Assembly: GCA_951812725.1 (NCBI GenBank)
Contig: OX638330.1
Span: forward strand, 1,178,001-1,242,000
Length of the DNA: 64,000 nt
Direction: 5' to 3'
DNA from: an uncultured Caldilineaceae bacterium
GTDB taxonomy: Bacteria > Chloroflexota > Anaerolineae > Caldilineales > Caldilineaceae
Under the pieces are notes generated by a model that was not told the origin of the DNA, ran no database searches, and was given only the letters and a program-made list of their open reading frames with translations. Below are positions 50,724-54,562 of this stretch, piece after piece; position 1 is the first letter of the stretch; every line of letters begins with the position of its first letter. The translations under genes and the position numbers were made by a program.

Positions 50724-51338
50724 CTAGTCGGCGACGGGCTGGTTTTCCTGCTCCTGGGATGTCGAGGTGCGAACGTAGACTTCGTGGATGCGCTGGACGG
50801 CAGTGACGTTGGTCATTATGGCCAGAAGCCAGAGGACAGGCAGCACCAGGCCCAGGATCAGGGAGGCTATCAGCAGGACAAGGCGTTCGGGCCGCTGGAG
50901 AAATCCTACATTGCATTCGATATCGAGGCCTTCGGCTCGTGCGCGTGTATAGCTGACGGCCCAAGAGCCTACCAGGGTAAGGAAGATCAGGAGGAGTGGT
51001 GTCTGGGCGTTGTTCTGGTTGGCGTAGTAGACGGCCAGGCCCAGAAAGGTGATGCTCTCCGAGTAGCGATCGAGGGTGCTATCCAAGAAGGCGCCAAATT
51101 TGGTTTCAGACTCACTGAGGCGGGCCAGGGTGCCGTCGACCATGTCCAGCATCGCGGCTGCCCAGAGGATGAAGCCGCCGATGAGGAGGTAGCCGGTCGC
51201 CAGTAGGGCGGCAGAGCCGATGGTCAAGGCGAAGCCGGTGAACGATATCATGTTCGGGGTGACGCCGATGCTCTGCAGCCAACGCGCAAAGGCGGTGACG
51301 CTGGACATGAGCAGTGGACGAACATGCTTGGCCATCAT
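50724..51338 (-). CDS. CDP-alcohol phosphatidyltransferase family protein
   Basis: 204 residues with about five to six helices. The diagnostic motif DG-x2-AR-x8-G-x3-D-x3-D is complete (DMVDGTLARLSESETKFGAFLDSTLDR, split over residues 64-91). The enzyme joins a CDP-diacylglycerol group to a small alcohol, such as glycerol phosphate or inositol phosphate; the acceptor cannot be told. ATG 51338 or 51335 may start it. Confidence 0.9.
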   Translation of the reverse strand: MMAKHVRPLLMSSVTAFARWLQSIGVTPNMISFTGFALTIGSAALLATGYLLIGGFILWAAAMLDMVDGTLARLSESETKFGAFLDSTLDRYSESITFLGLAVYYANQNNAQTPLLLIFLTLVGSWAVSYTRARAEGLDIECNVGFLQRPERLVLLIASLILGLVLPVLWLLAIMTNVTAVQRIHEVYVRTSTSQEQENQPVAD

Positions 51339-51424: not shown

Positions 51425-52030
51425 GAAGGGCTGGTAGGCGGGGAGGGGGAGTGTCTGAACTGTGATTTGGGGGGATTTTTCTGATGGGCTGTGATTTTCG
51501 TGCGTATGGAGGGGGACGGGGGGGGGGGGTTGGGGCCGGGGTCTGGACGGGCGTTGTCTGAACGGGGATTTGGGGGGATTTTTTTGATGGGCTGTGATTT
51601 GCGCGCGGACGGAGGGGGAGGGGGGATAGGGGCCGGGGTCTGAACGGGGATTTGGGGGGATCTTTTTGATGGGCTGTGATTTGCGCGCGTACCCGGGAGT
51701 GAGGGGGGATGGGGTTTGATTGCTGGCGCGGTGGGGAGGGGGGAGGAACGCTTTTGGGGGCGTTTTGTTCGTGTTGCACGAGAGTTTACAAGAGATCGGC
51801 TAGAGATTGGGGGAGAAATCTGGGGGGGTTGTCAGAACTGTGATTTTGGGGGATTTTATTGATGGGCTGTGATGGACTGCGGCGGGGAGGGGGCGGAATT
51901 GGGGGGTTTGGCGGGTTTTGGGGGGCGGGAGGGAGTTGTGGGGGGGTTGTGGAGAAGGTTGCGGGGAGATGGGGGCTCTTTGGGGTTTGTGATGGGTAGG
52001 GGAATACGGCTGCTGCCCAGGGGGAACAGT
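51425..52030 (+). repeat. G-rich repeat field with four copies of a GATT-type unit
   Basis: A unit of about 50 bases recurs at 51453-51504, 51554-51608, 51639-51690 and 51829-51873. It starts TGTCTGAAC, has GGGATTTGGGGGGATTTTT in the middle and ends TGATGGGCTGTGATTT. Between copies are runs of four to twelve G on the plus strand. These G-runs could form G-quadruplexes. Two further copies lie on the other side of the gene at 52057-53082. No gene is seen in 51339-52056. Confidence 0.85.
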
Positions 52031-52056
52031 ATTGGTGGGTATATGTTATTTGTTTG

Positions 52057-53082
52057 TTATGCCCCTACTGCAACTGCGGGGGCGGTGGTTAGGGGTGGAC
52101 CGGTGTTCTCTTGGGCTTCGAGAAAGTCTCCAAGCTCGTCCAATTTCTCGTTGTGTTTCTCTATCCTTGCCCTTTTTCGTTTGTAGGCTTCGTCTTCAGA
52201 GAGTTCCCTGGCTTGAAGCATCAGGTCCTTGATTTTGTTGCGCTGGTCTGCCATGACTTCCTGCGGCGTTTCGTCGTTGCGGCTGAAACGGGAGGTGCTG
52301 ACTTTGACTTTCACGCAGGCGGGAAGCTTGGTGAAGGGTTTGCCGGTCAGGGGGTCGAACGGGGCTGAGGGGTCGCTGGCTAAACGGGCCTGGGTCTCTA
52401 AGACATCTTTGTCCATGGTTTCCAACAGGTCGGTGATCTCGTGAACATCGGGAAGGCTGGACTTTGCAGGGTCATATTCGTCGAACTGGTTCTGCATTTC
52501 TTCGATTAACTGTTGTGTGAGGTCGAGGTTCCGGTAGCCGAAGCGGTGTCGGCCTTTGTCGTTGAGGACCACTTCGGGGGGTTGGTCGGGGTTGGAGGGC
52601 TCATTGTAGTCGGCGAAGCCCTGGGCGACGAAGGATTCGGCGCGGTACTGGTCCTGTTGGGCGGTGATGTTGTCGACGGCTGCGAGAAAGTCGAGGTTGG
52701 CGGGTGCGCCGGTGAACTCGGCGGCGGCGGCCTGGGTTTCTTCGGTGCGGATGCGCTCCATTTCCTCGTCGGCGCGGTGGTAGAGGTCGACCAGGGTTTT
52801 GGCGCTGCGACAGGCGGCGTTGCAGGCGGCGGGCGAGATTGTTCCTTCCAGTACTCGCTTCATGCTGTCGTGAACGAGGTCGATGGCTTGTTTGAGGCGT
52901 TCGGGGAGGCATTTGTCGAGGCGGGCGGCGGTGGCGGAGTTTTTGCCGCCGCGGGCGCGCCATGTGTGGACCTGGTCGGGGGCGGGACCGTGGGCGATGC
53001 AGAGGCCGTCGTATTTCTTGAGGCCGATTCCCTGACAGGGGCTGCCGTCTTTTCTGATTCCTTTACAGGGGGTTTTGGACAT
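52057..53082 (-). CDS. Unknown protein with N-terminal Cys/His motif, between repeats
   Basis: 341 residues; AGGAG lies nine bases before ATG. The N-terminus has a zinc-knuckle-like pattern, Cys6-x9-Cys16-x11-Cys28-x2-His31 (CKGIRKDGSPCQG ... LCIAHG). Related C-K/R-A-x-T/N-x2-G-x2-C patterns are seen in phage- and element-associated proteins, but this similarity is from memory. A helical region (about 55-110) and a coiled, charged C-terminus (KRKRARIEKHNEKLDELGDFL) follow. The middle holds ETMDKDVLETQARLASD and a DPLTGKPF turn. The gene sits alone, with four repeat units on one side and two on the other, so it may be cargo of a mobile or repeat-driven unit. Function unknown. Confidence 0.72.
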   Translation of the reverse strand: MSKTPCKGIRKDGSPCQGIGLKKYDGLCIAHGPAPDQVHTWRARGGKNSATAARLDKCLPERLKQAIDLVHDSMKRVLEGTISPAACNAACRSAKTLVDLYHRADEEMERIRTEETQAAAAEFTGAPANLDFLAAVDNITAQQDQYRAESFVAQGFADYNEPSNPDQPPEVVLNDKGRHRFGYRNLDLTQQLIEEMQNQFDEYDPAKSSLPDVHEITDLLETMDKDVLETQARLASDPSAPFDPLTGKPFTKLPACVKVKVSTSRFSRNDETPQEVMADQRNKIKDLMLQARELSEDEAYKRKRARIEKHNEKLDELGDFLEAQENTGPPLTTAPAVAVGA

Positions 53083-53240
53083 TGTGGGTTACTCCTGGGA
53101 TACGGGTGTATCTGGTTGTGCGGCTGGAGGGCCGGCGATGGTGAGTGGTTGGTTGGGCCGTGCAGGGAGAGAACACCTGTACGGATTCGTTATTATAACA
53201 CGGTTTTTGGGCGGATTTGGACGAATTTGGGACGGGGATT

Positions 53241-53362
53241 GTCTGAACTGTGATTTGGGGAGATTTTCTTGATGGGCTGTGATAGTCGCGCGGCCAGCGT
53301 TCGAGGGAGAATTGGGGGATTGTCTGGACGGGGATTGATGGGATTACAGGGATTGGCTGTGA
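53241..53362 (+). repeat. Two further GATT-type repeat units
   Basis: Unit 5 (53241-53292) closely matches units 1-4, including GTCTGAACTGTGATTTGGGG and TGATGGGCTGTGAT. Unit 6 (53321-53362) is shorter, with TGTCTGGACGGGGATT and GATTACAGGGATTGGCTGTGA. They lie upstream of the 52057-53082 gene, in the same orientation as units 1-4. Confidence 0.8.
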
Positions 53363-53616: not shown

Positions 53617-54405
53617 TCAGGACAGGTTGTCGTAGCTATGCACGGTTATTGGATTGGCGTAGAGTTGGCCGCCGCGCAGGGAACAGAGCGTGAAGCCCCA
53701 GCCGTCTTTGGCATTGATCTCGTGTTGGGAGCCCGGGTCGATCATGTAGGCGACGGCAGGCGATGTGATCGAGATTGTTTCGTGAAAGGAGGTGAGGTGC
53801 GGGTAATGGATGTGGCCGCTCAGAATGGCGTGGACATGATGGCCGGCGATTGTTTGCGCCAACGCATCGGGGTTGCGGAGACAGTGTTCGTTGAGCGGCT
53901 CGACAGTGCTGAAAACGGGCGGATGATGGACGGCGATGAGGTTGCCAAGAGGGGCGGGCTGCCGCAGTTCTTCGGCGAGCCAAGCCAATTGGGCCGCATC
54001 AAGGTCGCCATAGACGGCATCCGGCACTTTGCTGTCCAACATTATCACGCGTAGTCCGGCAATCATGGCACTATGGTAGTAGCGCTGGGATTCTTCAGTG
54101 GCTTCTTCCCCGAGGACGACGCGTCGGAATGGGAGGCGCCGATCGTGGTTGCCTAATCCAAGAATGAGGGGCACGTCGAAATCTCGCAGCTCGTCCAGAA
54201 GTGTGTTCAGTCTTTTATACTCCGCGTCGTCGCCGTCGTTAGCCAGATCGCCACTGAGGACGAAAAAGTCTGGGTTGATGGTCATGTTGCGGATTATTCT
54301 GATTACGTTGCGCAGCTTTTCACCCGGTCGCTGGTCTTTGAGAAGGTCATCTGGCTCCGGCAAGATATGCAAGTCGGACAGGTGCACAAAGGTTAGGTCG
54401 GTCAT
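53617..54405 (-). CDS. Calcineurin-like metallophosphoesterase (CpdA-like)
   Basis: 262 residues; ATG 54405 is chosen because the family begins at this point with FVHLSDLHI. The metal motifs are all there: DLH at 10-12 region, GDLANDGDDAEY, GNHDRR, AVHHPPVF and GHIHYPH. This set is typical of class III cyclic nucleotide phosphodiesterases and related enzymes. The substrate may be cAMP or another phosphodiester. The gene faces away from ettA. Confidence 0.9.
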   Translation of the reverse strand: MTDLTFVHLSDLHILPEPDDLLKDQRPGEKLRNVIRIIRNMTINPDFFVLSGDLANDGDDAEYKRLNTLLDELRDFDVPLILGLGNHDRRLPFRRVVLGEEATEESQRYYHSAMIAGLRVIMLDSKVPDAVYGDLDAAQLAWLAEELRQPAPLGNLIAVHHPPVFSTVEPLNEHCLRNPDALAQTIAGHHVHAILSGHIHYPHLTSFHETISITSPAVAYMIDPGSQHEINAKDGWGFTLCSLRGGQLYANPITVHSYDNLS

Positions 54406-54562
54406 GATGGTTGCGCCCTTCCAGTTGGGGTTATATAGTGTGGGGTCATATAGAGGCTGGGCGACGTGATACGGTGCCGGCCAGGGCCAAAAGGGTCCTG
54501 CGAAGTCCAATGATAGCCTCAAAGGCGCTGGTCTACAAACGAAAGTCAGGAACAGAGTTCAA

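Follow-up and report, generated by a model that had tools for sequence, protein, structure and literature searches.

The window, by which we mean the whole 64,000-nucleotide stretch analysed here, contains an open reading frame (ORF) of 341 amino acids between two clusters of GATT repeat units. The features of the locus and its two flanking genes are as follows.

50724-51338: CDP-alcohol phosphatidyltransferase-like gene in the flank, its name read from sequence
51452-51498, plus strand: GATT unit 1, 3' of the gene, from a separate dispersed and tandem repeat family
51555-51601, plus strand: GATT unit 2, 3' of the gene
51638-51683, plus strand: GATT unit 3, 3' of the gene
51775-51816, minus strand: degenerate 10/11-bp iterons of the CTCTTGTAAACTCTCGTGCAA type, the 3' end of the cassette
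51830-51873, plus strand: GATT unit 4, between the stop codon and the iterons, also found in paralog L002
51994-52018, minus strand: conserved motif GGCAGCAGCCGTATTCCCCTACCC of the 3' block
52040-52056, minus strand: AT-rich motif CAAACAAATAACATATA, directly past the stop codon
52057-53082, minus strand: ORF of 341 aa, with an N-terminal C-x9-C-x11-C-x2-H knuckle, a helical region and a variable C-terminal half
53083-53228, minus strand: conserved 5' flank of ~146 nt, common to copies L003 and L004
near 53190-53200, minus strand: TATAAT-like box in the 5' flank, a putative promoter as read from sequence
53240-53284, plus strand: GATT unit 5, 5' of the gene, missing from the otherwise matching L002 flank
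53321-53361, plus strand: GATT unit 6, weak, 5' of the gene, found in L002
53445-53600, plus strand: additional dispersed repeat, found elsewhere too, 3' of GATT arrays
53617-54522: metallophosphoesterase-like gene in the flank, its name read from sequence

An earlier note on this DNA had described six GATT units in one orientation, four 3' and two 5' of the gene, and all six were recovered, five of them strong and one weak (77% over 30 nt); G-runs between them are evident by eye. The Cys/His motif given there corresponds to C6, C16, C28 and H31, residues that are unchanged across 15 family members. The note had assigned the protein to no recognised family, and we agree: no Pfam or NCBIfam model scored above its cut-off, the top Pfam match being DUF5763 (E 0.0033; 17.3 bits against a cut-off of 26.3), and a comparison with PHROGs likewise gave nothing above cut-off. 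The zinc-finger or DNA-binding fold for which it had proposed a structure prediction was not recovered; the AlphaFold model is of middling to low confidence (pLDDT 74, pTM 0.39), and a fold search against the PDB with this low-confidence model returned no match at E <= 0.001. Matches to PDB sequences were TAL-repeat or coiled-coil chimeras only and were discarded. Neither Pfam, NCBIfam nor the fold search revealed a recognisable catalytic motif or fold in the protein, and an Rfam scan of seven loci found only an unrelated cobalamin riboswitch.

Copies of the gene and their sites

The source genome, a single contig of 5.95 Mb with an estimated contamination of 6.5%, holds eight dispersed copies of the gene, the window copy included, with 40-100% identity. 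Among the 60 relatives searched, mostly draft MAGs, the gene was found in 13 of the 16 other species of the same Caldilineaceae genus, with one to 18 matches each, and in none of the 44 genomes outside the genus. The phylum sample beyond the genus yielded the N-terminal domain alone. The named relatives are Caldilineaceae MAGs, and the genus is presumably sponge-associated, judging from MAG names and general knowledge. Match counts in draft genomes exceed the true copy number, because two contig-end matches of genome G007 are pieces of one copy with 141 identical bases in common; 16 of the 18 matches in that genome lie at contig ends, as expected of a multi-copy repeat that breaks the assembly. 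The copies have no conserved neighbour or operon, and those of one genome are scattered over the family tree.

The check for presence or absence and for empty sites that the note had proposed gave a positive answer at the level of species. The genes flanking the window copy adjoin without a gene copy in 12 other species, where the gaps measure 176-1016 nt; in the source genome the corresponding positions are 2293 nt apart, and a full copy therefore cannot fit in the shorter gaps. Where the source genome has L002, the gene is absent from the closest relative G010 (flank ~97% identical), in which about twelve GATT units form an array of 1.1 kb; G012 is likewise without a gene copy at this site. 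The G010 contig stops at the G-rich edge of the window site. Copy L007 is common to G010 with full synteny, and L006 is common to G012. No precise insertion with a target-site duplication was recovered among the compared draft genomes, and rearrangement breakpoints adjoin some of the gene copies.

Two candidate routes of site-specific insertion were discarded. Integration at a tRNA did not apply to the L001 and L008 junctions, which contain no tRNA, and the L008 site, considered as an att hot spot, has a breakpoint common to three genomes that is an operon start and more simply a rearrangement boundary. The homology of the three genomes stops at this same point (L133 8094, L288 8269, L149 5470), and two of these loci carry different gene subfamilies there. 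The cassette is thus far known from one genus only, and it is dispersed and variable in presence, unlike ordinary chromosome. To this extent the repeat-enclosed cassette proposed in the note stands; its GATT units as ends do not, with GATT near six of about 50 copies.

The 3' block and the GATT repeats

The 3' block begins after the stop codon with the AT-rich motif; part of the family then has a GGCAGCAGCCGTANNCCCCTACCC-like motif, and a C-rich stretch and the 10/11-bp repeats of the CTCGTAAACG type follow. Of 44 copies, 31 have an AT-rich motif like that of the window copy no more than 260 nt from the stop, and the iteron array often ends in an inverted half-site (AAACGCTCGT/ACGAGCGTTT). A loose three-iteron pattern was matched on the coding strand downstream of 35 of the 44 copies and on the opposite strand of none, with a mean of 1.7 and a maximum of 5 in shuffled sequences; it is permissive upstream, since 11 of 52 upstream windows also match. 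With a stricter iteron profile, matches were found in 27/44 downstream and 0/52 upstream windows, and there were none in 387 kb of control genome sequence. Iteron arrays occur in 16 of the 17 genomes of the genus, none of which had the reversed pattern. Genomes G003 (81% complete) and G005 contain iterons and lack the gene, and G004 has neither.

Four of the 12 exact iteron loci in the source genome are at gene copies. A 535-bp miniature element accounts for five solo iteron loci; it has terminal inverted repeats (TIRs) of the TAGGGCTCGTTGACATTT type, TA at both ends and the iterons inside, and its right end is degraded in one copy. The five copies are L253, L266, L231, L233 and L247 (G000 near 3.828 and 5.873 Mb; G010 C65 and C117; G007 C29), and the likeness between the G000 and G010 copies, ~95%, is confined to the element. 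A TIR common to this element and the cassette was considered and was not found flanking the gene cassettes; two different vehicles therefore carry the same iteron array.

GATT units were counted by a 16-mer core (TTGATGGGCTGTGATT, up to three mismatches) with shuffled sequences as the control (n=100). The window has five matches, all at this locus, unit 6 escaping the pattern; the shuffled mean was 0.53, and 0 of the 100 shuffles reached five. A GATT profile matched near three of the eight copies in the source genome and nowhere in 387 kb of control sequence. The joint occurrence of repeat and gene in relatives, which the note had suggested searching for, was not borne out as a rule: GATT lies within 600 nt in 2/44 downstream and 5/52 upstream windows, corresponding to six different copies among the roughly 50 tested. 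Every match near a gene copy is antisense to the gene, in one relative orientation. GATT was also found in each of the 17 genomes of the genus, the three gene-less ones among them. Since few copies have GATT nearby and gene-less genomes contain it, GATT cannot be a general border; around some copies it is enriched and keeps one orientation, yet it belongs to a separate family. A repeat spread widely with no link to the gene, which the note had named as counting against its own reading, is largely what we found for GATT, but this does not hold likewise for the iteron block, a feature absent from the note. The 3' block, not GATT, travels with the ORF.

G010 has GATT tandem arrays with an ~80-bp period far from any gene copy. 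Two long arrays of this period, L140 (G010:C15:29679-30800) and L141 (G010:C15, ~58.5-60.4 kb), are followed by a fixed dispersed repeat. GATT and iterons alternate in some arrays (L230, L242), and L242 (G005:C159) and L240 (G005:C44) consist of tandem compound units with GATT-like and iteron-like stretches by turns. A different tandem repeat (CCACGGAGGGCCACGGAGAACTGCAAC) fills the intergenic regions in the flanks of L003, L004 and L006. An older GATT array most likely surrounds the window cassette.

Possible origin and spread of the cassette

The N-terminal ~115 amino acids occur by themselves in 6 of 399 other Chloroflexota genomes. Several of these relatives have a gene for an integrase, resolvase or primase a few kb away, and on one phage contig a relative is located directly 5' of genes whose products are the large subunit of a terminase, a portal of the Mu type and a Mu F-like protein. 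A PHROGs scan gave no small-terminase match. The surroundings of these relatives suggest that the N-terminal part might be an accessory domain with a DNA-binding role in phages and integrated elements, which is a lead and not proof. Elsewhere, a phage ORF (L181 4974-5363), two genes before a terminase-like gene, fuses the Cys/His knuckle to a region that looks HNH-like by eye, and two N-terminal-only relatives in G402 (L187 and L189), with equal scores and the same printed protein, lie near a serine recombinase.

Sequence divergence is unevenly distributed within and around the copies. Between L001 and L002, dS is 0.04 over the N-terminal 130 codons and 0.30 in the C-terminal part, and the C-terminal half is the least conserved part of the protein. 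The C-terminal part is ~64% identical between some G007 copies, whose flanks reach 82-94%. L005 and its G010 counterpart match at 97.5% over the gene and 3' flank and diverge on the 5' side just ahead of the start codon. The two G010 copies cluster together in the tree, yet each is syntenic with a copy in G000. Such mosaics agree with copies having recombined or undergone gene conversion. The product is probably functional, as dN/dS values of 0.10-0.29 in five syntenic or near pairs point to; the ratio is 0.47-0.96 in other pairs, being near 1 for L001 versus L002 and roughly 0.5-0.6 in some others.

The reading we prefer, which we consider about equally likely to be right or wrong, is a dispersed single-gene cassette encoding a DNA-binding protein together with its cognate iteron array, for which GATT arrays would be one landing place. 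The cassette would consist of the ORF for a largely helical protein with the Cys/His knuckle and of the conserved 3' non-coding block ending in iterons. Protein-bound iteron arrays typically have repeats phased at one helical turn and a last half-site in inverted orientation, and the protein most likely binds its own CTCGTAAACG iterons as cognate sites. Its ancestor might have been a DNA-binding protein encoded by phages or integrated elements. Recombination, homologous or of another kind, among the dispersed copies and the repeat arrays between genes could spread and reshuffle the cassette, the GATT arrays being one type of landing place. Homologous recombination accounts for the mosaics and rearrangements, and less well for the new sites; hidden transposase activity or particle-mediated transfer may be alternative routes of movement. 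The reading builds on the observed multiple copies, the variable presence between species, the strand-specific pairing of ORF and iterons, the iterons found apart from the ORF, the mosaics and the purifying selection on several copies. Iterons in the two gene-less species G003 and G005, the dN/dS near 1 between L001 and L002 and around 0.5-0.6 in some other pairs, the weak structure model that matched no fold and the failure to recover an exact insertion with a target-site duplication count against this reading.

The window copy has GATT on both sides, L002 occupies the place where G010 has a GATT array, L001 and L002 have GATT-bearing flanks in common, and all GATT matches near copies keep one orientation relative to the gene. 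Such an arrangement could imply that the flanking GATT units are the ends of the cassette and that the gene moves by homologous recombination between them, but the few copies with GATT nearby and the presence of GATT in every genome of the genus, gene-less ones too, make this unlikely. A single multi-copy ORF with flanks in common, and with subterminal direct repeats ending in an inverted half-site, is also what an autonomous transposon might look like, the ORF being a new kind of transposase and the iteron block one terminus. We regard this as rather unlikely in view of the missing catalytic motif or fold, the iterons at a single end (no profile match in 52 upstream windows), the TIRs and target-site duplications that were not seen, and the poor conservation of the C-terminal half, the expected place of a catalytic domain.

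An ordinary lineage-specific family with a host role, whose products might for example be regulators using the iterons as operators and whose copies would have arisen through the common rearrangements of a repeat-rich genus, would agree with the purifying selection on several copies, the spread of one genome's copies over the tree and the rearrangement breakpoints beside copies. The three species entirely without the gene, the lack of conserved neighbours or operon and the contig breaks at multi-copy matches leave it rather improbable. We see only a slight chance of a minimal packaging parasite, in which a small-terminase-like gene with pac-like iterons would travel between cells in phage or gene-transfer particles and, with no integrase or transposase of its own, become fixed through recombination in intergenic DNA rich in repeats. 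If the preferred reading of a gene with its own iterons is true, the cassette would be a dispersed element without a recognised transposase that bears an apparent array of its own binding sites, and it would contribute to rearrangement and assembly breaks in this presumably sponge-associated genus. The protein and repeat would make a testable pair, possibly representing a phage-type DNA-binding domain turned into a stand-alone selfish gene.

Comparison with known systems

A literature search found no paper on DUF5763 or on the GATT or iteron repeats. The likeness to DUF5763 (PF19067) is a weak match on the N-terminal Cys/His motif, below the Pfam gathering cut-off, and the model has 39 positions, the cassette protein being ~300 residues longer. 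TA-flanked TIRs are a feature of IS630/Tc1-like MITEs, and the 535-bp miniature element of the same genomes resembles MITEs and bears the same iterons, whereas its terminal inverted repeats are missing from the gene cassettes. As to insertion sequences, no recognised transposase was found in the cassette protein by Pfam or NCBIfam. The small terminase TerS usually sits directly before the terminase large subunit, and the likeness to small terminases, or to PICI-encoded TerS with a pac site, concerns one phage N-terminal relative before TerL, not the cassette itself. The cassette protein differs from TerS in having no small-terminase match in PHROGs, and the cassette differs from satellites in having no integrase, capsid or other satellite gene.

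The RAYT/REPIN systems offer a further comparison, in that a repeat family both accompanies a gene and occurs apart from it at scattered places in the genome (PMC3116915). RAYTs are tyrosine transposases of the IS200/605-like type, and REPINs are inverted doublets of REP sequences (PMC3116915). The cassette protein, in contrast, has no recognised transposase domain by Pfam, NCBIfam or fold search, the same searches giving no match to a Y1 HUH (IS200-type) transposase. Its repeats are direct 10/11-bp iterons, of which the last half-site alone is inverted, rather than hairpin doublets, and the cassette gene is itself multi-copy. As with RAYTs and REPINs, the putatively cognate iterons lie both near the gene and dispersed elsewhere.
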